Assembly: GCF_000470315.2 (NCBI RefSeq)
Contig: NZ_CBRF02000020.1
Span: 1 to 64,000, forward strand
DNA: 64,000 bases
Origin: Psychromonas sp. SP041
GTDB lineage: Bacteria; Pseudomonadota; Gammaproteobacteria; Enterobacterales; Psychromonadaceae
Direction of reading: 5' to 3'
Positions 115-58,249 of the stretch are shown in pieces; the first letter of the stretch is position 1; the number at the start of each line of letters is the position of its first letter. The notes under the pieces were generated by a model. The model was not told the DNA's origin. It searched no databases and worked only from the letters and a program-made list of their open reading frames with translations. The position numbers and the translations under genes are program-made.

Positions 115-505
115 TTATGCCACTACACATGCTTCAGCTTGCAGGGATTCTGGTGTTAGGTTTGATCCTTTGACCTTATTCTTTTGACCTTCGTTATCAA
201 AGTAAAAAGCACAAAACAACCAATACACAAAAGATCTGCAAGCTAAAGCGTGCGCCCCGAGTAATCGAACATAGAATTTAAATACAACAACCACAATCAA
301 CACACAAAAGATCTGCAAGCTAAAGCGTGCGCCCCGAGTAATCGAACATAGAATTTAAATACAACAACCACAATCAACACAAAAAACATCTGCAAGCTAA
401 AGCGTGCGCCCCGAGTAATCGAACATAGAATTTAAATACAACAACCACAATCAACACAAAAATCATCTGCAAGCTAAAGCGTGCGCCCCAAGTAACAAAC
501 CTAAA
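115..505. repeat. REP-related block with a 77-bp tandem repeat (about four copies)
   Basis: A plus-orientation REP core (GCTTCAGCTTGCAG) lies at about 131-144. Four minus-orientation REP cores (CTGCAAGCTAAAGCGTGCGC) then begin at about 235, 312, 389 and 466, exactly 77 bp apart. The intervening 54 bp are also nearly identical between copies, so the whole 77-bp unit has been duplicated in tandem. The last copy degenerates after about 495. Open frames crossing this block are not credible genes. The block sits between the IS3 end and the damaged 3' end of the metallo-beta-lactamase gene. Confidence 0.9.
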
Positions 506-31582: not shown

Positions 31583-31956
31583 ATATACACTCAGTTATAA
31601 ATTAGATAACACTTAATAATATTAAAAATCAACACCATCGCTCATCTCAACATAATTGCGATAGCTATCAAGCGTAGCTTGATATTCGGGGCGCTGGCTT
31701 TAGCCTGCCAGTATGCGAGTTATCGCATACGACGATTAGCTTCGCTGAACAAAGCGAATCATAAATGACTAAAACAAACCAAAACCCAAAACCTAAAGAC
31801 TAAAGACTAAAATCAAAACAAGCAGGCTAAAGCATGCGCCCCTTACAAGATGTATCGTATCTTACAATGTTGTTCATCAATTACGGTATATCATAAAATC
31901 AACACCATCCTCATCTCAACATAATTGCGATAGCTATCAAGCGTAGCTTGATATTC

Positions 31957-32070
31957 GGGGCGCTGGCTTTAGCCTGCAGGGGTTTGTGTATTGTTTTTTG
32001 ATTGTTAACTACAAAGTCAAAAAACTAACACATGTAAACATTAAAATCTGCAAGCTAAAGCATGCGCCCC
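31957..32070. repeat. REPIN 1 (114 bp inverted REP pair)
   Basis: A plus REP at 31957-31979 faces a minus REP at 32048-32070. Inner arms are also complementary (TTGTGTATTGTTTTTTGA against TCAAAAAACTAACACATG), so nearly the whole element can fold as one long stem with a loop around TTGTTAACTACAAAG. Confidence 0.9.
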
Positions 32071-32307
32071 TTACAAGATGTATCGCATACAACGATTAGC
32101 TTCGCTGAACAAAGTAAACCATAGATGACACTAGGTTCAAACTTCAAGTTCAAAAGATTAAGGTCAAAACAAGCAGGCTAAAGCATGCGCCCCTTACAAG
32201 ATGTATCGTATCTTACAATGTTGTTCATCAATTACGTTATATCAAAAATCAACACCCTCGCTCATCTCAACATAATTGCGATAGCTATCAAGCGTAGCTT
32301 GATATTC

Positions 32308-32421
32308 GGGGCGCTGGCTTTAGCCTGCAGGGTTTTGTGTGTTGTTTTTTGATTGTTAACTACAAAGTCAAAAAATCAACACATGTAAACATTAAAATCT
32401 GCAAGCTAAAGCATGCGCCCC
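32308..32421. repeat. REPIN 2 (114 bp inverted REP pair)
   Basis: Same size and inner sequence as the copy at 31957-32070, with only a few base differences. GGGGCGC begins it and GCGCCCC ends it. Confidence 0.9.
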
Positions 32422-32775
32422 TTACAAGATGTATCGTATCTTACAATGTTGTTCGTCAATTACGTTATATCAAAAATCAACACCAACACCTAAAGGCTAA
32501 AATCCAAACAAGCAGGCTAAAGCATGCGCCCTTTACAAGATGTATCGTATCTTACAATGTTGTTCATCAATTACGTTATATCAAAAACCAACACCTAAAG
32601 GCTAAAATCAAAACAAGCAGGCTAAAGCCAGCAGGGTTTTGTGTGTTGTTTTTTGATTGTTAACTACAAAGTCAAAATCAACACATACAAACATTAAACA
32701 CTGCAAGCTGAAGCATGCGCCCCGAAAACCAAACACCGAAATCAATACATGTAAACACTACAAGCTTTTGAACTT

Positions 32776-32889
32776 GGGGCGCTGGCTTTAGCCTGCAGGG
32801 GTTTGTGTGTTGTTTTTTGATTGTTAACTACAAAGTCAAAAAATCAACACATGTAAACATTAAAATCTGCAAGCTAAAGCATGCGCCCC
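32776..32889. repeat. REPIN 3 (114 bp inverted REP pair)
   Basis: Third pair of exactly 114 bp, with the same loop (TTGTTAACTACAAAG) and the same outer arms as the other two. Confidence 0.9.
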
Positions 32890-33119
32890 TTACAAGATGT
32901 ATCGCATACAACGATTAGCTTCGCTGAGCAAAGCGAATCATAAATGGCACTAGGTTCAAACTTAAAGCTCAAAAGATTAAGGTCAAAACAAGCAGGCTAA
33001 AGCCAGCGCCCCTTACAAGATGTATCGTATCTTATAATGCTGTTCGTCATTACGTTATATCAAAAATCAACACCAAAACCTAAAGACTAAAATCAACATA
33101 CTATTAAGGTTATAGTTAA

Positions 33120-38804: not shown

Positions 38805-39181
38805 TCTATAAGCGCATGCTTGAAACACTCTCTTTTTCAAAAGTTCCTAAGAAATAAACCTTTATATTTATTTTTATATTGTTAACAATCAATTCATCAT
38901 ATTTCAATTTAAAATAAAGCTAAATATTAAGTAAAATATCAAACAACAACAAAATATCTTTCCACTTTTAAAAAATTAATATTTTTATAATAAAAGCGGC
39001 TCAATAATATTTTTAAAATTAGTACAATATTTTAAGGACTAGTGTGACACCATGATCGCATTAATATAAAATATCTTATCAACTAATTTTATTTGTACTT
39101 TATTTTAAAATGATGCTTGTTAAAAATTCATTTACGATAGCCTGTAAGCCTTATTCACATTCTATAAAAGTTAACATTCCT
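38805..39181. other. Divergent intergenic region
   Basis: This AT-rich stretch separates the minus-strand capsule locus from the plus-strand methyltransferase gene. I see no further gene and no repeat family member. A short extension of the methyltransferase frame back to 39110 lacks codon character and is not counted as coding. Confidence 0.5.
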
Positions 39182-40033
39182 ATGATCAAACGCACTTTTA
39201 CTACTCCTTGGCAAGATTATGAACTCATTGATGCCGGTAATAACCAAAAGCTTGAGCGTTGGGGAAATGTATATACAATTCGCCCTGAAATGAATGCTTA
39301 CTTTGAGCCTGTACTATCAAAAAAACAGTGGTTGGCTAAAGCACACTTTGAATTTATTGAAAGTAGTAGTAGTGCCGGTGAATGGGAGACACTACAAGGT
39401 AATTTGGAGCATGATTGGCGAATTAAGTTCAATAACATCACAATTAATTTGCATCTGACTAAATTCAAACATGTTGGGTTATTTCCAGAACAACGCGCTA
39501 ATTGGGATTTTATTGCTGATAACCTTCAATCTGGCGACCGTTTCTTGAACCTCTTTGCTTATACAGGTGTGGCTTCATTAGTAGCAAGAGATCAGGGCGC
39601 TGAAGTGCTACATTGTGATTCTGTTAAGCAAATCATTAAATGGGGCAAAGAGAACATGGAGTCCTCTGGTTTAACAGATGTGCATTGGGTTTTAGAAGAT
39701 GCATTGAAATTTGCTCAGCGTGAAATAAAACGCGGAAAACAATACCAAGGCTTGATAATGGATCCCCCTGCTTTTGGTATTGGTGCAAAGAAAGAACGCT
39801 GGAAGATTGAAAACAAATTCCCAGAGTTAATAGAGGCAGCTTTAGCATTACGCGCAAAAGGTGGTTTTATTATTGCCAACACTTATTCCCCTCGCCTAGA
39901 TGCAGAACGTATTCGTCAAATCACCAGTGATTTATGTAACGGCGAAAAAGTACAAGTCACCACCCTAAGCGTAAAAAGCCAAACAGGTAAAATATTAGAT
40001 TACGGATTGAGAACAGTTATTACTGGGAGTTAG
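39182..40033 (+). CDS. Class I SAM-dependent methyltransferase, RlmI-like
   Basis: From ATG 39182 the product has 283 residues. FLNLFAYTGVASLVARDQGA is the SAM-binding loop, and LIMDPPAFGIGAKKERWKIE contains the DPPAFG catalytic motif that is shared with rRNA cytosine-C5 methyltransferases of the RlmI/RlmK type. The N-terminus (RTFTTPWQDYELIDAGNNQKLERWG) is that of stand-alone homologues lacking the PUA domain. RNA is the probable substrate. The start was chosen because earlier in-frame ATGs at 39110-39113 add 24 residues without family character. Confidence 0.7.
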   Translation: MIKRTFTTPWQDYELIDAGNNQKLERWGNVYTIRPEMNAYFEPVLSKKQWLAKAHFEFIESSSSAGEWETLQGNLEHDWRIKFNNITINLHLTKFKHVGLFPEQRANWDFIADNLQSGDRFLNLFAYTGVASLVARDQGAEVLHCDSVKQIIKWGKENMESSGLTDVHWVLEDALKFAQREIKRGKQYQGLIMDPPAFGIGAKKERWKIENKFPELIEAALALRAKGGFIIANTYSPRLDAERIRQITSDLCNGEKVQVTTLSVKSQTGKILDYGLRTVITGS

Positions 40034-40139: not shown

Positions 40140-40700
40140 GGTATTGACTTCGAGCGAATGAGACGAAGCTTTAGCCTGCAGGGGGTTATGTGTTGATTTG
40201 GCTTTAAGTTGGATAATAGAAAGTATGGAAGGCAATATCACCCCCCCTAAAAATCAACACACAAAAGATCTGCAAGCTAAAGCGTGCGCCCCTAAAATAA
40301 AAAACTACAAACTGAAAACATAACTCGTAAATTCTAAAACCAACACATAAAAGATCTGCAAGCTGAAAACAGGACTCACAGAGTTCCTCAGCTCATAATA
40401 CTAGGCTGTCGCCTAATTCGCCAAGCGCCCTCAATTCAAAATCAACACACCGAAACCTTTTAGCTTTCTACAACTATTCTTAGCCTTTAGCTTCAGTCAA
40501 CAGCAGATTATGTGTTGTTTTGACTTGTTGCTACAAGTTTATGAGCCTTTGACTCTGGGGCGCATGCTTTAGCTTGCAGGGGTTGTGTGTTGTTTTTTCT
40601 TTTAACTTCACACAAAGTCAAAATCAACACATGTAAACATTAAAATCTGCAGCCTGAAAACAGAACTCGCAGAGCTCCTACACCCATGACAATAGGTTTA
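40140..40700. repeat. REP copies on the 3' side of the RAYT gene
   Basis: A plus core (GCTTTAGCCTGCAG) lies near 40168, a minus core at 40270-40292, a long-insert minus variant at 40356-40430 and a further plus core at 40557-40579. A truncated long-insert copy at 40647-40690 runs up to the RAYT stop codon. The long-insert variant keeps the outer ends (CTGCAAGCTGAAAAC and CCAAGCGCCC) but has about 50 extra bases where the hairpin loop would be. Confidence 0.88.
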
Positions 40701-40701
40701 A

Positions 40702-41223
40702 TCACTCACTTTCATAAACCCCATAAAACCGCTTTTTTGCATCTTTTAATTCTGCTTTATATGCATTATTTTTAATATATTGATAAGTTATTTGAAACTG
40801 CTTTTCAGTTCGAATGGCTTTGTCATAATAACTTTTCTCCCATAATTTTCCTGACTCAGTTTTGTATTTATTGATGACAAAGGCGCTACCTCCTTTAATA
40901 TTTTGCATGATGAGGCTTAGCGGCTGGATTTGTTGAAAAAGTAGATGTACATGGTTAGGCATAATAGAGACTGCAAATAAGTTGTAATCTAATTTATCTT
41001 TAGATTTGAATAATGAAATAAGCAAAGGAATGGTTTCATTATTTAATATTGCCCCTGCCCTGCTAGTATCCAAAAACTGATCTAACTGATGCTGTTGCTT
41101 AGCGGTACTTTCGATTATTTGCTTGTTATGTTTTTTGAGGTAGTAGGTAACACTTTCATGTGTTCTAAATGTTACGAACTGAACAGTATTTTTCTGATCT
41201 ATGTGGAATAAATTACTACTCAT
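40702..41223 (-). CDS. REP-associated tyrosine transposase (RAYT, Y1/HUH family)
   Basis: The product has 173 residues. VQFVTFRTHES opens the IS200-like fold, AVSIMPNHVHLLFQ contains the HUH-type metal motif His91-Val-His93, and LWEKSYYDKAIRTEKQF contains the catalytic Tyr (most likely Tyr133). This is the pattern of RAYT proteins, single-strand endonucleases that cut at REP hairpins and are thought to disperse them. Fitting this, the gene is flanked on both sides by copies of the window's REP family: a truncated copy reaches the stop codon and more lie from 41340 on. No IS200-like ends of its own are visible. All key residues are present, so it appears active. Confidence 0.88.
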   Translation of the reverse strand: MSSNLFHIDQKNTVQFVTFRTHESVTYYLKKHNKQIIESTAKQQHQLDQFLDTSRAGAILNNETIPLLISLFKSKDKLDYNLFAVSIMPNHVHLLFQQIQPLSLIMQNIKGGSAFVINKYKTESGKLWEKSYYDKAIRTEKQFQITYQYIKNNAYKAELKDAKKRFYGVYESE

Positions 41224-41339
41224 TTTTACCTCATCGCTATGACAGATAATTAGCTTTAGAGATTAAGTTTAGTTTAAAATTTGAAGTTTAGTAAAAAGTA
41301 AACATTGCTTTATCTTAGTGATTGTTAGACTTTGACTTC

Positions 41340-41645
41340 GGGGCGCTGACTTTAGTCTGGAGGATTTTGTGCATTGTTTTTGGTTTTAAATTAAAAAGTA
41401 CAAAATCAAAGTCAACACATGTAAACATTAAAATCTGCAAGCTGAAAACAGGACTCGCAGAACTCCTCCGCTCATGGCACTAGGCTGGCGCCTAATTCGC
41501 CAAGCGCCCCTAAAATAAAAAAACTCATGCACCAAGTCAAAATCAACACATGTAAACATTAACTCCTGCAAGCTGAAAACAGGACTCGCAGAACTCTTCC
41601 GCTCATAACACTAGGCAGTCGCCTAATTCGCCAAACGTCCCAAGG
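41340..41645. repeat. REP copies on the 5' side of the RAYT gene
   Basis: A plus core at 41340-41362 carries the hairpin GCTGACTTTAGTCTGG, in which G-C has become A-T on both stem sides relative to GCTGGCTTTAGCCTGC. It faces a long-insert minus variant at 41435-41510, making a REPIN of about 171 bp. A second long-insert copy ends near 41643, just beyond the kinase/phosphatase stop codon. Confidence 0.88.
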
Positions 41646-41652
41646 TCAACAA

Positions 41653-43416
41653 CTAAAGCACTCTAGTGCTTAGTAGTATGAAGAGCTCTACAGCACTGAT
41701 GCCGATGAAGATAAAGGCTAGGCATTGCCAGAATTTTACTGGATCTCTTTCTAGGAGTGACTTTTTGGGTTCTTGAATTGTTTGTCTTTTTTGGATGACG
41801 GTTAGTTCTGCAATAAATTCGCTCATGGTGCTATAGCGTTTATTGGGTTTTGGATCTAATGCGCGTCGTAATACGTTATCAAGTCGGCTTGATAACTCTG
41901 AGCGGTGAGTTTGGATGGGTTGGTAAATCCAAGTGTATTGTCTTGCTCTGTCTAATGATTGTGCTTGGTTGGCGGGATAAGGTAAATACCCCGATAACAG
42001 CTCATAGGCAATAACCGCAATGGAGAATAAGTCTGACAACGACGAGCTTTGGTTATCGTTTAAGTATTCTGGTGCGATGTAATCTACTGCTCCTAAGGGT
42101 TCTTCTTGTTGTTCTTTTACTATCTCTTCAAAACCATTAACTTTAACGGTACCGAAGTCGATTAACTTAACTTCATTTTGCCCTGAGATAATAATATTTT
42201 CAGGTTTTAAATCTCTATGCACCATACCCGCACGCTGTAAGACACGGACTGCATTCACTATTTTTTTAATGATGTCATAGGCTTGATCTAACTCAGGTTT
42301 AGGGTTTTCTTGCATCCATTGTCTTAATGGCATGCCTTCCACATGTTCACATATATGATATAGAAAAACTGAACCTTTGATATTGTCTGCAATCGACATG
42401 ACATTGGGGTGATTAATTGACTGCCCTACCCACTGCTCTTTATAAAAGCCTAATAGGTAATTTACATCTTCTTCAAAATTGAGTGATGGCATTTTCAGCA
42501 CCACTTTGTTTTGGGTGCTTTTGTCCGTGGCTAGATAAACATGGCTACGTGCCCCTTCATGCAATATTTTATCTATTTTAAAACAATCAATTTCGTTACC
42601 TACCTGTAATGCTGGCGGGATATTTAAACTGCTTAAATGTGAAAATAACTCGTTTAAATTGGATCTAGGTAATGAGGTTACTTTTACCAATAAACAACTG
42701 ATATTGTCGCTGCTGCCTTCTGTTAAAGCATCATCACATATTTTTTTAGCCAGTAGCTCAAATTCTTGTGTTGTTGCCTCTTCTGTTAATTGGCTTAAAT
42801 AAGCCTTTAAGCTTTCTTTAGTTAAATAGTCATGTACACCGTCACTGCTTAACATGAACAGGTCACCGACTTGTAATGGGATTGTTTGATAGTCAATATC
42901 AAGGTGGCAATCCATGCCAAGTGCACGTGTTAATACTGGGTTTTGTTTATAAACAGCACGACTGTGATCATGTGATAGTTGTTTGAGTTCTTCATCTTGA
43001 TAACGATAAACGCGGCTATCACCAATATGCAAAATATGGGCTGTTGTAGATTTAATAACGACACTGCTGAAAGTGGTGATTAAACCATTATGTCGAAGAT
43101 CATCTTGATTATGTTGATATAACCAACTGTTAAGGGAGTTAAGGACTTTGCTTGCGGATTGTTTAACATCCCAGCTTTTGTTGGTGCTGTAATAATCAGC
43201 AATGAATTGGGTAACACTGGTGTGGCTGGCTTGTTGTCCTTTATCGCTACAACTTACGCCATCAGCAACACAGGCCACAATGCCTTTCATCTTTTTTTCT
43301 GACTCTGAATACGGGTCTTTTACTGCAAAAGCATCTTGATTAACAGAACGTTTACCTGCCGTGGAATAGCCACCGATACAGACTTTTAATGTTGGTTCTG
43401 TTTGACTCTTATTCAT
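41653..43416 (-). CDS. Fused PP2C phosphatase and Ser/Thr protein kinase, membrane-anchored
   Basis: From ATG 43416 the product has 587 residues. About residues 10-255 are a PP2C phosphatase: SVNQDAFAV, VACVADGVSCSDKG, HILHIGDSRVYRY and SSDGVHDYL give the metal-binding Asp residues. About 275-545 are a Hanks-type kinase: KVVLKMP for the ATP lysine, MVHRDLKPENIII as catalytic loop and KLIDFGTVKV as the DFG block. The last 25 residues (LAFIFIGISAVELFILLS) form one membrane segment. Kinase and phosphatase in one chain next to narK and nir genes is a recurring arrangement in marine gammaproteobacteria and suggests control of nitrate uptake or assimilation by phosphorylation. Target unknown. Confidence 0.85.
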   Translation of the reverse strand: MNKSQTEPTLKVCIGGYSTAGKRSVNQDAFAVKDPYSESEKKMKGIVACVADGVSCSDKGQQASHTSVTQFIADYYSTNKSWDVKQSASKVLNSLNSWLYQHNQDDLRHNGLITTFSSVVIKSTTAHILHIGDSRVYRYQDEELKQLSHDHSRAVYKQNPVLTRALGMDCHLDIDYQTIPLQVGDLFMLSSDGVHDYLTKESLKAYLSQLTEEATTQEFELLAKKICDDALTEGSSDNISCLLVKVTSLPRSNLNELFSHLSSLNIPPALQVGNEIDCFKIDKILHEGARSHVYLATDKSTQNKVVLKMPSLNFEEDVNYLLGFYKEQWVGQSINHPNVMSIADNIKGSVFLYHICEHVEGMPLRQWMQENPKPELDQAYDIIKKIVNAVRVLQRAGMVHRDLKPENIIISGQNEVKLIDFGTVKVNGFEEIVKEQQEEPLGAVDYIAPEYLNDNQSSSLSDLFSIAVIAYELLSGYLPYPANQAQSLDRARQYTWIYQPIQTHRSELSSRLDNVLRRALDPKPNKRYSTMSEFIAELTVIQKRQTIQEPKKSLLERDPVKFWQCLAFIFIGISAVELFILLSTRVL

Positions 43417-43439
43417 TGATATTTTTACCTTAATTTTTT

Positions 43440-43465
43440 CATCCCTCATTTTATAATGAGGGATG
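43440..43465 (-). other. Intercistronic hairpin between narK and kinase/phosphatase genes
   Basis: CATCCCTCATT and AATGAGGGATG form a perfect 11-bp stem with a 4-nt loop between the narK stop and the next ATG. There is no T run after it, so it is more likely a processing or stability element than a terminator. Confidence 0.5.
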
Positions 43466-51212: not shown

Positions 51213-51885
51213 GTTGTTACCTAGTTTTCAGGATAGCTTTCAGGATAGTTTGCAGGGATAGTTTTTGGCATAACTAGCTGACATAACTTTCTCATATAAC
51301 TTTCTGGCATAGCTTTAAGGATAGTTTTTTAGCTAGCTTTGTAACTGGTGTGTTATGCAACTAGCGTCATCTACTTTTAAATTAGGGGCGTTGAGGTCAA
51401 AGCCCTCTAATTTTGCAGCTCCGATTATCAGCCTTTGGCTTTGGGGCTGAGCTCCCCCTTTAATTTTGCAGCTTCGATTATGAGTCTTTGACTTCGGAGC
51501 TGAGCTCTCCCCTTTAATTTTACAGCTCCGATTATGAGCCTTTGACTTTGGGGCGCTGGGCGAATGAGACGCAGTCTCTTGCAATGAGCGGAGGAGCTCT
51601 GCGACTCCTTTTTTCAGCCTGCAGGGGGTTATGTGTTGCTTTTGACTTTGAATTAGACTTTGATAATAGAAAATAGAAAAGGTAATCTTAAAATACCTAG
51701 AACCCAACACAAAAAAAGATCTGCAAGCTGAAGCATGCGCCCCGACGTAAAAAGAAAAATCAACACATGTAAACACTAAAATCTGCAAGCTAAAAACAGG
51801 ACTCGCAGAGCTCTTCCGCTCATAACACTAGGCTGTCGACTAATTCGCCATGCCCCCGAAAATAAAAACTGTAATCTAAAAACAA
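51213..51885. repeat. REP block with a 53-bp tandem repeat after nasA
   Basis: 51213-51330 contains degenerate repeats of AGGATAGTTT and similar. Three tandem copies of about 53 bp (each with AATTTTGCAGCT or a close variant near its start) begin near 51409, 51462 and 51516. A plus long-insert REP variant follows at 51550-51626, a normal minus core at 51721-51743 and a minus long-insert variant at 51783-51857. The open frame running across these repeats on the minus strand is an artefact of their composition. Confidence 0.85.
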
Positions 51886-53211: not shown

Positions 53212-53907
53212 ATGATTAACCTAACTAATTTACGCTTTGCCTGGCAGAAAAAAGACATTATTGATATTAGTTCGTTAAATATTAAAAAAGGCCAACATCT
53301 ATTTATTGAAGGCCCGAGTGGAAGCGGTAAAAGTACATTATTGAATTTACTAGGGGGCGTTTTAACACCACAAAATGGCGATGTTACGATTCTTGGTCAA
53401 TCTTTAAATGCATTATCTTCAAGTCAAAAAGATAGTTTTAGAGCAAATCATATCGGTTTTATATTCCAACAGTTTAACTTGATCCCCTATTTAAGCGTGT
53501 TAGATAACATCACTTTACCTTGCACCTTCTCAAAAGCCCGAAAAGAAAAAGCGTTAAAGCACAGTAAAAACTTAAATGAAGAAGCCATTCGTTTACTAGC
53601 TGCACTGGGTTTACACGATTCAGAATTATTACAGCGTAGTGTTAATGAACTGAGTGTTGGACAACAGCAACGTGTTGCTGCAGCAAGGGCAATGTTAGGT
53701 AGCCCTGAAATCATTATTGCCGATGAACCCACCTCTGCATTAGACAGTGATCACCGCCAAGGCTTTATTAAAATACTATTCGAAGAATGTCAAAAAGAAG
53801 AGATTACCCTCATTTTTGTCAGCCACGATGCCGATTTAAAACATCACTTTACGCATAGTATTAACTTACAACAGATCAATCAGGTTAACTTCAAGGAATC
53901 GATATAA
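53212..53907 (+). CDS. ABC transporter ATPase, LolD/MacB-like
   Basis: The product has 231 residues. EGPSGSGKSTLLNLLGG is the Walker A, LSVGQQQRVAAARAML the signature, and IIIADEPTSALDSD the Walker B; the H-loop is FVSHDAD. The close spacing and LolD/MacB type match the FtsX-like permease that begins at the last base of this gene. GTGAGAAG precedes the ATG. Together with the two Zur-like sites in front, the operon is probably switched on by zinc starvation, and resembles the Vibrio Zrg-type system by gene content (from memory). Confidence 0.85.
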   Translation: MINLTNLRFAWQKKDIIDISSLNIKKGQHLFIEGPSGSGKSTLLNLLGGVLTPQNGDVTILGQSLNALSSSQKDSFRANHIGFIFQQFNLIPYLSVLDNITLPCTFSKARKEKALKHSKNLNEEAIRLLAALGLHDSELLQRSVNELSVGQQQRVAAARAMLGSPEIIIADEPTSALDSDHRQGFIKILFEECQKEEITLIFVSHDADLKHHFTHSINLQQINQVNFKESI

Positions 53908-55889
53908 TGGCGATTTTATCATTAGCATTCAAAAGCTTACTTAACCGTAAACTGACCTTTTTCATTACTCTTTTTTCTATCGCAATCAGCGTAACTTTAT
54001 TGCTAGGTGTTCAAACCTTAAAAACAGAAACGAACAATAGCTTTATGAAAAGTATTTCTGGTACTGATTTAATTATTGGTTCTCGAGGCGCTTCTTCACA
54101 ATTGTTATTGAGCTCAGTTTTTCATATCGGTAATACCACTAATACCATTAAATATGATACTTACCAAAAAATCAGTCAATCACCTGCGGTTGAATGGGCA
54201 GTCCCTATTTCATTAGGTGATTCTCATCATGGCTATACTGTGATGGCAACCGACTTAAGTTTCTTTGATTATTTTAGTTACGCTAATAAACAACATTTAA
54301 AGGTTGAATCAGGAAAAATAGATGACGATATGTTCGCAGTTGTTATTGGTTCAGAAGTCGCTAAAAAATTAAATTATAAAATTGGCGATGAGGTTATCGT
54401 AACGCATGGAGGTGGTGAAATAGAAGGACATAATCATGATAATATTCCTTACTTCATCAGTGCAATCCTATCCCCTTCTTTTACCGCTATAGACCAATCT
54501 CTTATTATTTCATTGGAAGCAATGGAAGCGATGCATACAGATAATCATGGCCATTTTGGTGCATTGCCTGGAGAAACAACCCTAGCAGCCAATCACGCAG
54601 ATCACGATGAACATGATCACGAAGATGAAAATCATGAGCAGCATCATGACGAAGCAACGCATGATGAACATGAACACGAAGATGCAGATCATGAGCAGCA
54701 CCATGATGAAGCAGCGCATGATGAACATGAGCACGAAGATACAGATCATGAGCAGCATCATAACGAAGCAGCACATGATGAACATGATCACGAAGATGCA
54801 GATCACGAACAACACCATGACGAAGCAGCGCACGATGAACATGATCATGAAGATGCAAATCATGAAGAACACCATGACGAAGCAGCGCATGATGAACATG
54901 AGCACGAAGATGCAGATCATGAGCAACACCATGACGAAGCAGCGCACGATAAACATGAGCACGAAGAACACCATGACGAAGCCACTCACGATGAACATGA
55001 TCATGAAGATGCAAATCATGAAGAACACCATGATGAAGCAGCGCATGGTGAACATGATCACGAAGGTGAAAATCATGAGCAACATCATAACGAAGCAGCG
55101 CACGATGAACATGATCACGAAGATGAAAATCATGAGCAACATCATAACGAAGCAGCGCACGATGAACATGATCATGAAGAACACCATGACGAAGCCACTC
55201 ACGATGATCATGAAGATGCAAATCATGAAGAACACCATGATGAAGCAGCGCATGATGAACATGATCACGAAGCAGCCCATGAAGGTCACCGTGAGACACA
55301 AGATCAACGTGTTGCTAGGTTATTAAAGGTAAAACCAGAGAAAATTAATGCAATCTTTGTTGGTTTAACCTCTCCTCAAGCAGTGTTAGGCATGCAAAGT
55401 TATGTTAATAATTTTCAAGAAGAGCCTTTATCTGCGATTATTCCTGCCCTCGCTCTTCAGGAATTATGGGAATTCTTTAGCCTTGCTGAAGTTGCGTTGA
55501 GTATTGTGACCGTATTTGTTGTCTTAGTTGGCTTATTGGGAATGTTAAGCATTATTCTAATGAGCTTGAATGAACGTCGTCGAGAAATGGCAATTTTACG
55601 CTCAGTAGGAGCAAGACCTGGACATATCTTTAGTTTGATTATTGGCGAAGCAGGTTTTGTTTGTTTTGCTGGCATATTATTGGGTATTGCATTACTTTAC
55701 CTACTCCTTCTCATACTACAGTCACCGTTGGCATCGTATTATGGGTTTTATTTGGATATTAATATGTTGACGTCTAATGATTTACTTATTTTAGCAATTA
55801 TTCAAATTAGTGCATTATTGATAGCATTAATTCCTGGTTGGTTAATTTATAAGTACTCATTATCAGATGGCATGAGCATCAAGTTTTAG
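53907..55889 (+). CDS. FtsX/MacB-like ABC permease with a giant His-rich repeat domain
   Basis: The product has 660 residues. An N-terminal membrane segment (LTFFITLFSIAISVTLLLG) precedes a MacB-type periplasmic part, and three segments near the C-terminus (VALSIVTVFVVLVGLLG, AGFVCFAGILLGIALLYL, LLILAIIQISALLIALIPGW) complete the four-helix FtsX-like layout. About residues 229-465 (54590-55300) are a 19-residue repeat such as DEHDHEDADHEQHHDEAAH, in about 12 copies with two 14-residue forms. It is made almost only of D, E, H, N, Q and A, without Cys. Placed on the periplasmic side it should bind many metal ions, probably zinc. The repeats are still close at DNA level, so copy number may vary. 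Reading frames on other strands here are shadows. Confidence 0.85.
   Translation: MAILSLAFKSLLNRKLTFFITLFSIAISVTLLLGVQTLKTETNNSFMKSISGTDLIIGSRGASSQLLLSSVFHIGNTTNTIKYDTYQKISQSPAVEWAVPISLGDSHHGYTVMATDLSFFDYFSYANKQHLKVESGKIDDDMFAVVIGSEVAKKLNYKIGDEVIVTHGGGEIEGHNHDNIPYFISAILSPSFTAIDQSLIISLEAMEAMHTDNHGHFGALPGETTLAANHADHDEHDHEDENHEQHHDEATHDEHEHEDADHEQHHDEAAHDEHEHEDTDHEQHHNEAAHDEHDHEDADHEQHHDEAAHDEHDHEDANHEEHHDEAAHDEHEHEDADHEQHHDEAAHDKHEHEEHHDEATHDEHDHEDANHEEHHDEAAHGEHDHEGENHEQHHNEAAHDEHDHEDENHEQHHNEAAHDEHDHEEHHDEATHDDHEDANHEEHHDEAAHDEHDHEAAHEGHRETQDQRVARLLKVKPEKINAIFVGLTSPQAVLGMQSYVNNFQEEPLSAIIPALALQELWEFFSLAEVALSIVTVFVVLVGLLGMLSIILMSLNERRREMAILRSVGARPGHIFSLIIGEAGFVCFAGILLGIALLYLLLLILQSPLASYYGFYLDINMLTSNDLLILAIIQISALLIALIPGWLIYKYSLSDGMSIKF
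54590..55300 (+). repeat. Coding 57-bp tandem repeat for the His-rich domain
   Basis: About 12 units of 57 bp (some 42 bp) encode the DEHxHEDxxHExHHxEAAH pattern. Differences between units are mostly synonymous or D/E, N/D and T/A changes. Units 2, 4 and 6 are nearly identical, which points to recent duplication or unequal exchange. Confidence 0.9.
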
Positions 55890-56739: not shown

Positions 56740-57790
56740 CAGATTGTGATTTGGAGTGCATGCAACATAACCTAGTGTTATGAGCTTAAGCGATCTGCTA
56801 ATTCTATTTTTGGCTTGCAGATCTTTTGTGTGTTGGGTTCTAGGTATTTCGATATTACCTTTTCTATTTTCTACTATCTAATTCAAAGTCAAAGCCAAAA
56901 TCAAAAGCAACACATACCCCCTGCAGGCAGAAGCCAGCGCCCCGAGGTCAAAAGCAACACATACACCCCTGCAGACTAAAGTCAGCGCCCCGAGGTCAAA
57001 AGCAACACATACACCCCTGCAGGCTAAAGCCAGCGCCCCGAAGTCAAAAACAATACATAACCCCCTGCAGGCTGAAGTCAGCGCACCGAGGTCAAAAAAA
57101 ACACATAACCCCCTGCAGGCTGAAGTCTGCGCCCCGAGGTCAAAAGCAACACATACCTCCCCTGCAGGCTGAAGTCTGCGCCCCGAGGTCAAAAACAACA
57201 CATACCCCCCTGCAGGCTGAAGTCTGCGCCCCGAGGTCAAAAGCAGCACATCCCCCCCTGCAGGCTGAAGCCAGCGCTCCGAGGTCAAAAGCAACACATA
57301 ACCCCCTGCAGGTTGAAGCCAGCGCCCCGAAGTCAAAGGCTGATAATAGTTGCTGAAAACCAGAAGGTTTTGAATTCGGGGCGCTTGGCGAATTAGGCGA
57401 CAACCTAGTGTAATGAGCGGAAGAGCTCTGCGAGTCCTGTTTTTAGCTTGCTGATCTTTTTTGTGTTGATGTTTTGTCTTTGATATTTTCAGCATAAACT
57501 CAAAAGCACATATACCCCCTGCAGGCTGAAGCCAGCGCCCCAAAGTAAAAATCAACACATAACACCCTGCAGGCTGAAGCCAGCCCCCCAAAGTAAAAAT
57601 CAACACATAACTCCCTGCAGGCTGAAGCCAGCGCCTCAAAGTAAAAATCAACACATAACCCCTGCAGGCTGAAGCCTGCGCCCCAAAGTAAAAATCAACA
57701 CATAACCCCTGCAGGCTGAAGCCTGCGCCCCGAAGTCAAAAGCAACACATACACCCCTGTAGGCTGAAGCCTGCGCCCCAAAGTAAAAAT
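56740..57790. repeat. Large tandem REP array, 47-49 bp period
   Basis: Nine minus-oriented REP cores begin at 56921, 56969, 57017, 57065, 57113, 57162, 57210, 57258 and 57306. After an interruption by a plus long-insert variant (about 57378-57455), six more begin at 57519, 57567, 57615, 57662, 57709 and 57757. The 23-bp cores (for example CTGCAGGCTGAAGCCAGCGC) and the roughly 25-bp linkers (GAGGTCAAAAGCAACACATA) are both conserved. In the last three copies the hairpin is a perfect palindrome, GCAGGCTGAAGCCTGC. Frames crossing the array on the minus strand are not genes. Confidence 0.95.
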
Positions 57791-58249
57791 CAACTCATAA
57801 ACTCATAAACTCATAAACTCAGCAAAATGAAATACCTTTCTTTTTATTGAGTAAAGTCAATGAGAGAAAATAAAAGATAAAAAAATTAGCCACACTGTAA
57901 TAATTAAATATATTCAAAAATGTAATCGTTGTATTTTCGTTAGCCTGCACCTCCTCCCTATTTATCTAAACACAAACAACTGATTATTAAACAGTTTTAA
58001 TTTAAAACCTAATAGCGATAGTTGCGTTAGTCACTATAAAAAAGGAGATCTGTTACTCCTTTTTGGTTGTAAGCATTGTCTTTGATATAAAAAATGAGTC
58101 ATAGATCTAATTAATGAGAGCACCCCACTCATCAAAAATGAAAGATGGCTCACAAAAGCATTAAATGTATTTAAAGCTAGCTCACAAAATAATTGAGTTA
58201 GATGAAAAGAATATTTAGAAAGGTGTTAGCTTCCATAAAGCAAAGTATG
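57791..58249. other. Intergenic region before the alkaline phosphatase gene
   Basis: No credible gene. The hairpin at 58039-58064 is the only clear structure. The rest is AT-rich spacer between the REP array and the Pho box. Confidence 0.55.
58039..58064 (+). terminator. Terminator-like hairpin with no visible gene upstream
   Basis: AAAAAGGAG and CTCCTTTTT pair around an 8-nt loop, with T's at the end. It may protect the phosphatase region from read-through out of the REP array. Confidence 0.5.

Follow-up and report, generated by a model that had tools for sequence, protein, structure and literature searches.

A REP-associated tyrosine transposase of Psychromonas with a GGGG head in the GTAG position of its REPs, and a separate 54-nt module

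The stretch of DNA analysed here (the window; 64,000 nucleotides of contig C20 in the 4.80 Mb, 121-contig genome of the marine bacterium Psychromonas sp. SP041, G000) probably carries a REPtron (a RAYT with the REPs cognate to it) of the GTAG/TTYA-loop kind whose guide tetranucleotide has shifted from GTAG to GGGG (probability of about 0.75). REPtrons of this kind are already known, and the new element is the GGGG head in the GTAG position of an otherwise known RAYT/REP system. A module of about 54 nt enclosed in some of the REPs (module M) is the more novel lead.

The RAYT gene (40702..41223, minus strand) encodes a TnpAREP-like HuH/Y1 nuclease of 173 aa, a transposase of the domesticated type, recognized by a Pfam Y1_Tnp match (44 bits), a fold model and a residue alignment with E. 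coli RayT. The latter identified H91-x-H93, W128-E129 (W94-Q95 in E. coli), D134, R138 and the catalytic Y149, which aligns with the catalytic Y115 of E. coli TnpAREP. The histidine pair proposed in the earlier note was thus retained, while its catalytic tyrosine (Tyr133) was replaced by Y149. The AlphaFold2 model (pLDDT 85.6) had as top Foldseek match PDB 4er8 (E 6e-7), the E. coli TnpAREP with bound REP, with IS200, ISDra2 and IS608 ranking below. The protein therefore possesses the HuH motif and single tyrosine in a 4er8-like Y1 fold that define RAYT/TnpAREP proteins, and is likewise accompanied by flanking, abundant and extragenic REPs. Against NCBIfam REP_Tyr_transpos it scored 63.6 bits, below the cut-off of 80, so that the equivalog threshold was not reached. 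The class 2 motif Y---NP read Y---NA in the GGGG lineages and was kept as Y---NP in G011, G012 and G004.

The gene, which had been described as single, is so inside the window, but the genome contains a second copy on contig C67 (G000:C67:7782-8300, L002; 88% identical) that is broken by one TAA stop and sits in another REP cluster with an array of slightly different flavour. The two copies are homologous over the gene and beyond it, starting 73 bp ahead of the ATG and ending about 48 bp after the stop codon. A second copy of this extent would suit an ordinary IS200-like insertion sequence with the repeats derived from its ends, as would the situation in G022 (L069 / L189), where at least three further copies of the final ~50 nt of the RAYT gene lie near it, each between inverted REPs, as expected for internally deleted units. 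However, only one or two gene copies were found per genome, none of them identical, instead of the multiple near-identical copies of an insertion sequence, and REPs exceed gene copies by about 100:1. In addition, the NCBIfam transpos_IS200 score was 34.5 bits for a cut-off of 55, and the gene occupies one and the same chromosomal site in G000, G013, G014, G017, G021 and G023, all of which makes an insertion sequence of this type highly improbable.

At this site, the RAYT gene lies between a methyltransferase-like gene (39110..40033, plus strand) and a PP2C/Ser-Thr-kinase-like gene (41653..43449, minus strand), the genes that also flank the orthologous locus of other species on the left and right. 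The tree of the neighbour gene placed G000 with G016 and G023 (support 100/99) and G013 with G021 (100/100), whereas in the RAYT tree G023 paired with G017 (98/94) and this pair grouped with G013 (100/99). Moreover, G000 and G023 were 92% identical in the neighbour gene but only 59% in the RAYT. The conflict between the trees and between the identities shows that members of the genus have exchanged the RAYT at a single locus.

Genome-wide, 193 REP copies were detected with a 24-nt pattern (≤3 mismatches), compared with 0 for the reversed control pattern; the count of the hairpin core that the earlier note had called for is thus not due to chance. The REPs were dispersed over many contigs, in both orientations, and belonged to two types, often inverted relative to each other: type A (GGGG-C-GCTGGC-TTTA-GCCTGC, with a T.T mismatch at pair 3) and type B (GGGG-C-GCAYGC-TTYA-GCTTGC, with a Y.T mismatch at pair 4). 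As had been claimed from the window alone, the RAYT gene is bracketed by the repeat, with type B copies at 40269..40292 (minus strand; GGGG-C-GCACGC-TTTA-GCTTGC) and, 3' of the gene, at 40557..40580 (plus strand; GGGG-C-GCATGC-TTTA-GCTTGC), a type A copy 5' of the gene at 41340..41363 (plus strand; GGGG-C-GCTGAC-TTTA-GTCTGG), all found by pattern match, and long forms on either side.

The window contained 35 REPs in five blocks (235-490 and 31.7-33.0, 40.3-41.4, 51.7 and 56.9-57.8 kb), or six when the two sides of the RAYT gene are taken separately, which agrees with the at least six intergenic blocks, in both orientations, first reported. Coding sequence covers 83% of the window, yet all 35 lay clear of genes (rough P of 1.4e-4 for five intergenic blocks). 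These blocks included four type B REPs in a 77-bp tandem array (about 235..490, minus strand), a BIME-like block of 12 A and B REPs in both orientations (31688..33012), and two head-to-tail arrays with a 48-bp unit, one with 9 type A-like REPs (56901..57337, minus strand) and one with 6 copies (57508..57800, minus strand). The 'unusual array forms' of the earlier note accordingly resolved into two kinds, namely these plain 48-bp head-to-tail arrays and REPs with a separate, structured 54-nt module.

The best conserved parts of the REPs were the loop and the head, the latter lying outside the hairpin. The commonest stems of the window genome, which carry the T.T or Y.T mismatch, folded like shuffled sequences (z -0.2 and 0.1), and the perfect stems of G001 and G014 reached z -2.9 and -3.2. 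For group 3 REPs, stem mismatches abolished activity in vitro (PMC8266576). The poor folding of the mismatched stems and this loss of activity weigh against the REPtron reading, as does the NCBIfam RAYT score below the cut-off. GACY ahead of GGGG was rejected as a conserved cut site, as it was strong only for type A in the window's own genome and the flanks differed in the loci of other lineages.

To leave the head free, loci were scanned for a 6-bp stem with a TTYA loop. The same geometry, a head of 4 nt followed by 7 nt and the TTYA loop, was observed throughout Psychromonas, and is that of GTAG-type REPs. GGGG stood 7 nt before the loop in most hairpins of nine genomes (G000, 91/117; G001, 17/17; G013, 34/37; G014, 18/23; G016, 51/58; G017, 14/16; G021, G022 and G023, each 19/23). 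The head was GGAT in G011 (5/5 hairpins), GGAA in G007, G012, G004 and G018, which had few hairpins, and GTAG in G006 (7/7) as well as in five loci from other genera (9/9, 10/11, 4/4, 4/5 and 16/16). Stems varied between lineages with compensation (GCGGAC/GTCCGC, GCAGGA/TCCTGC, GTAGCT/AGCTAC, GTGGGC/GCCCAC, GAAGGC/GCCTTC). Given the identical 7-nt spacing to the loop and the compensated stems, GGGG occupies the exact position of GTAG, and the claim of a RAYT with its own REP family and a head other than GTAG was borne out. The proposed GGGGCGC flank was narrowed to an invariant GGGG(C), since the next two bases, GC, are part of the stem and in other species change together with their pairing partners (GGGG-C-GTAGCT..AGCTAC, GGGG-C-GTGGGC..GCCCAC).

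The heads followed the RAYT lineages. RAYTs associated with GGGG heads were 59-100% identical to the window RAYT, those with GGAA/GGAT heads 43-53%, and the distant RAYT with the GTAG head within the genus 31%. The residue following the invariant W, at the position of E. coli Q95, was E or D with GGGG, A with GGAA/GGAT and Q with GTAG. Two or three independent changes underlie this correlation between head and residue 129. In E. coli, Q95 takes part in GTAG recognition (PMC6006769), and W94, Q95 and R104 are kept in GTAG subclasses (PMC6006769; PMC8266576). E/D129 may be the cause of the GGGG preference. In a survey of 395 genomes from the order, members of the RAYT subfamily (E≤1e-20) occurred only in Psychromonas, apart from one distant match in G119 (L107), outside the genus. 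This WQ protein has GGAGC-6bp hairpins with loops of five bases on its flanks, so that Q is not strictly linked to GTAG, and it may be related to the GGGG type.

Across the 24 Psychromonas genomes, GGGG REPs were present in 8/8 genomes with a GGGG-type RAYT (seven by pattern, G014 by reading its flanks) and in 1/16 genomes without one (Fisher p about 1e-5, calculated by hand and ignoring phylogeny). The pattern counts in relatives use the stems of the window genome, which missed G014, and zero counts concern that pattern. The exception, G016, possessed 154 REPs and no RAYT detectable even at E=10; at the orthologous position, flanked by the methyltransferase-like gene and the PP2C/kinase-like gene, it harbours a REP cluster and lacks the RAYT. 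The earlier note had named genomes with many REPs and no RAYT as evidence against the linkage, and G016 is literally such a genome, but the 15 other genomes without a GGGG-type RAYT gave no match to the REP pattern. Since REPs outliving their RAYT have been reported for E. coli strains (PMC3733652), G016 is best read as a RAYT loss, the simpler reading, which weakens the RAYT-REP inference and does not refute it.

The REPs retained by G016 could also be explained if the repeats spread by slippage or recombination independently of the RAYT, the gene being a passenger in a REP cluster. The 48- and 77-bp tandem arrays point in the same direction, as does the tandem duplication of the RAYT gene at the orthologous locus of G021 (Psychromonas sp. 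14N.309; L187 / L035). Such spread is nevertheless judged unlikely, as REPs are scattered in both orientations over many contigs, their co-occurrence with the RAYT is near-perfect in the genus, and head changes track the RAYT lineage.

For the REPtron, a mode of action can be proposed by homology with the E. coli and Marinomonas TnpAREP. The RAYT would bind the REP (GGGG-C-6 bp stem-TTYA loop) in single-stranded form, probably during exposure of lagging-strand DNA, and would read both the head and the T,T,A of the loop; in Marinomonas REPMb, the loop T,T,A is essential (PMC8266576). Y149 would then cut at a dinucleotide selected through its pairing with positions 4 and 3 of the head, and rejoining of strands could copy or move REPs and REP pairs. 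In REPMb, an altered head altered the cut dinucleotide, with GTGG giving CC (PMC8266576), so GGGG is predicted to select CC, or C-T by G.T wobble. The reading of the tetranucleotide guide by TnpAREP proteins has so far been studied with GTAG enzymes. A single genus here offers a natural series (GTAG, GGAA, GGAT and GGGG) in which loop and spacing are fixed and a candidate residue co-varies, which opens the guide code to a single-residue-swap test.

Among known systems, the group 3 / subclass 2.5 TnpAREP (Marinomonas Mb; Haemophilus influenzae, REP GTAGGGTGGGCTTYAGCCCACC) share with Psychromonas the short stem with a TTTA-type (TTYA) loop, the 11 nt from head start to loop, the clustering of REPs near the gene, a D at the E. 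coli E100 position and the R104 equivalent. In contrast to their GT(A/G)G before the hairpin, the Psychromonas head is GGGG (GGAA/GGAT in sister lineages); its RAYT also has D/E for Q95, Y---NA for Y---NP and, within its N-terminal third, an additional segment. E. coli TnpAREP (RayT, PDB 4er8) has the same fold, and the inverted A (mismatch at pair 3) and B (pair 4) REPs resemble the Y and Z units of its BIMEs, but the identity with the window RAYT was 14% over the structural alignment, and the Psychromonas REPs differ by their short stem with a TTYA loop and by their head. The subfamily, arrays and flank had been regarded as undescribed, and literature searches combining Psychromonas with RAYT/REP yielded nothing on these GGGG repeats. 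Non-GTAG RAYTs are nonetheless partly known: TIRYTs are RAYT-like genes without GTAG REPs whose flanking repeats share GGGGWSAS (Di Nocera 2013, PMC3733652). The Psychromonas repeat also begins with GGGG and lacks GTAG, but it continues with C-GC... instead of WSAS, so that the fit is not exact, and it forms genuine short REPs in high copy number.

The long forms are REPs whose stem or loop encloses the ~54 extra nt of module M. On the minus strand, they were found at 40345..40430 (M at 40369-40422), 41400..41515 (M at 41448-41501) and 41531..41641 (M at 41579-41632), together with the 3' half of a long form (about 40612..40701) that abuts the RAYT stop codon, an arrangement shared by the C67 copy. 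Another lies on the plus strand at 57375..57487 (M at 57387-57440), and the block at 51548..51862 consists of two long forms around a type B REP (51720-51743), with M at 51559-51611 (plus) and 51796-51849 (minus).

Over 34 distinct copies of M, 86% of the proposed pairs were kept compared with 78% in shuffles, with 62 double-sided changes (21 in shuffles) and a covariation of 0.268 (0.130 in shuffles; 0/500). Helix S1 alone was 92% paired, with 34 double-sided changes. The structure rests on this covariation, since folding as DNA was no better than in shuffles (z -0.1 to -0.9). A pseudoknot (GAGC/GCTC) was rejected, being 95% paired yet nearly invariant and therefore without covariation support. 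An Rfam search of the window gave no match at the gathering cut-off. The long form was not retained as a TwoAYGGAY element either (L170, 38.5 bits, cut-off 43), as the alignment revealed M as a 54-nt insertion within that element.

A covariance model detected M in 23/24 Psychromonas genomes, including genomes without GGGG REPs or RAYT (G005, 71 copies; G018, 44; G008, 39). With a stricter cut-off and filters, it was retained in 21 Psychromonas genomes, against 0/371 other sampled genomes of the order. Its contexts (beyond the window, in L203, L213, L224, L170 and L229-L248) comprised the loops of REPs and, in TwoAYGGAY-like elements, the first loop, as well as truncated 5S-like repeats and a duplicate of fusA. 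The truncated 5S-rRNA-like units form arrays downstream of rRNA operons in G005 (L203:1364-2000) and G008 (L213:900-2100), each unit being succeeded by a terminator-like hairpin and most carrying M; the filled repeats read AGTAGG[M]CCATCGCC, compared with AGTAGGTCATCGCC when intact. In G005, three tandem fusA 3'-end copies follow the intact gene (L224:1208-1886), the middle one filled by M and the two alongside empty.

The occurrence of M within structured-RNA-like elements and 5S-derived repeats, together with the intergenic position of every window REP, would also be compatible with a role of the hairpins at the RNA level, as terminators or mRNA ends, the link with the RAYT being historical. 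This appears quite improbable for the REPs, in which the head, outside the hairpin, is the best conserved part together with the loop, as for a guide.

M apparently constitutes a separate, undescribed mini-element that is not specific to the window RAYT. Its S1 loops, in 96 distinct but related copies, were GNNA in 77 cases, only 4 of them GNRA, and GNA in 7 others. The cGNNAg tetraloop and GNA are stable DNA loops, and this bias, suggestive only as the copies are related, would favour a single-stranded-DNA role. Tentatively, at somewhat below even odds, M could be an independent mobile mini-element of ~54 nt, with two hairpins and no gene, that spreads among Psychromonas genomes and enters the loops of other hairpin elements (REPs, TwoAYGGAY-like RNAs) and 5S-derived repeats, probably as single-stranded DNA because its first hairpin keeps the cGNNAg loop and avoids GNRA. 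If mobile, it would rank with the smallest mobile elements known from bacteria. PATEs and other non-autonomous IS200-IS605-derived elements are similarly short, with two hairpins, inserted in one orientation and without evident target duplication, but M differs in being only 54 nt long and restricted to one genus. Literature searches on PATE-like elements and on the cGNNAg DNA loop returned nothing on these repeats.

Elsewhere in the window, long His/Asp/Glu-rich repeats were present at 54597-55284, inside an ORF of 660 aa (53907-55889).
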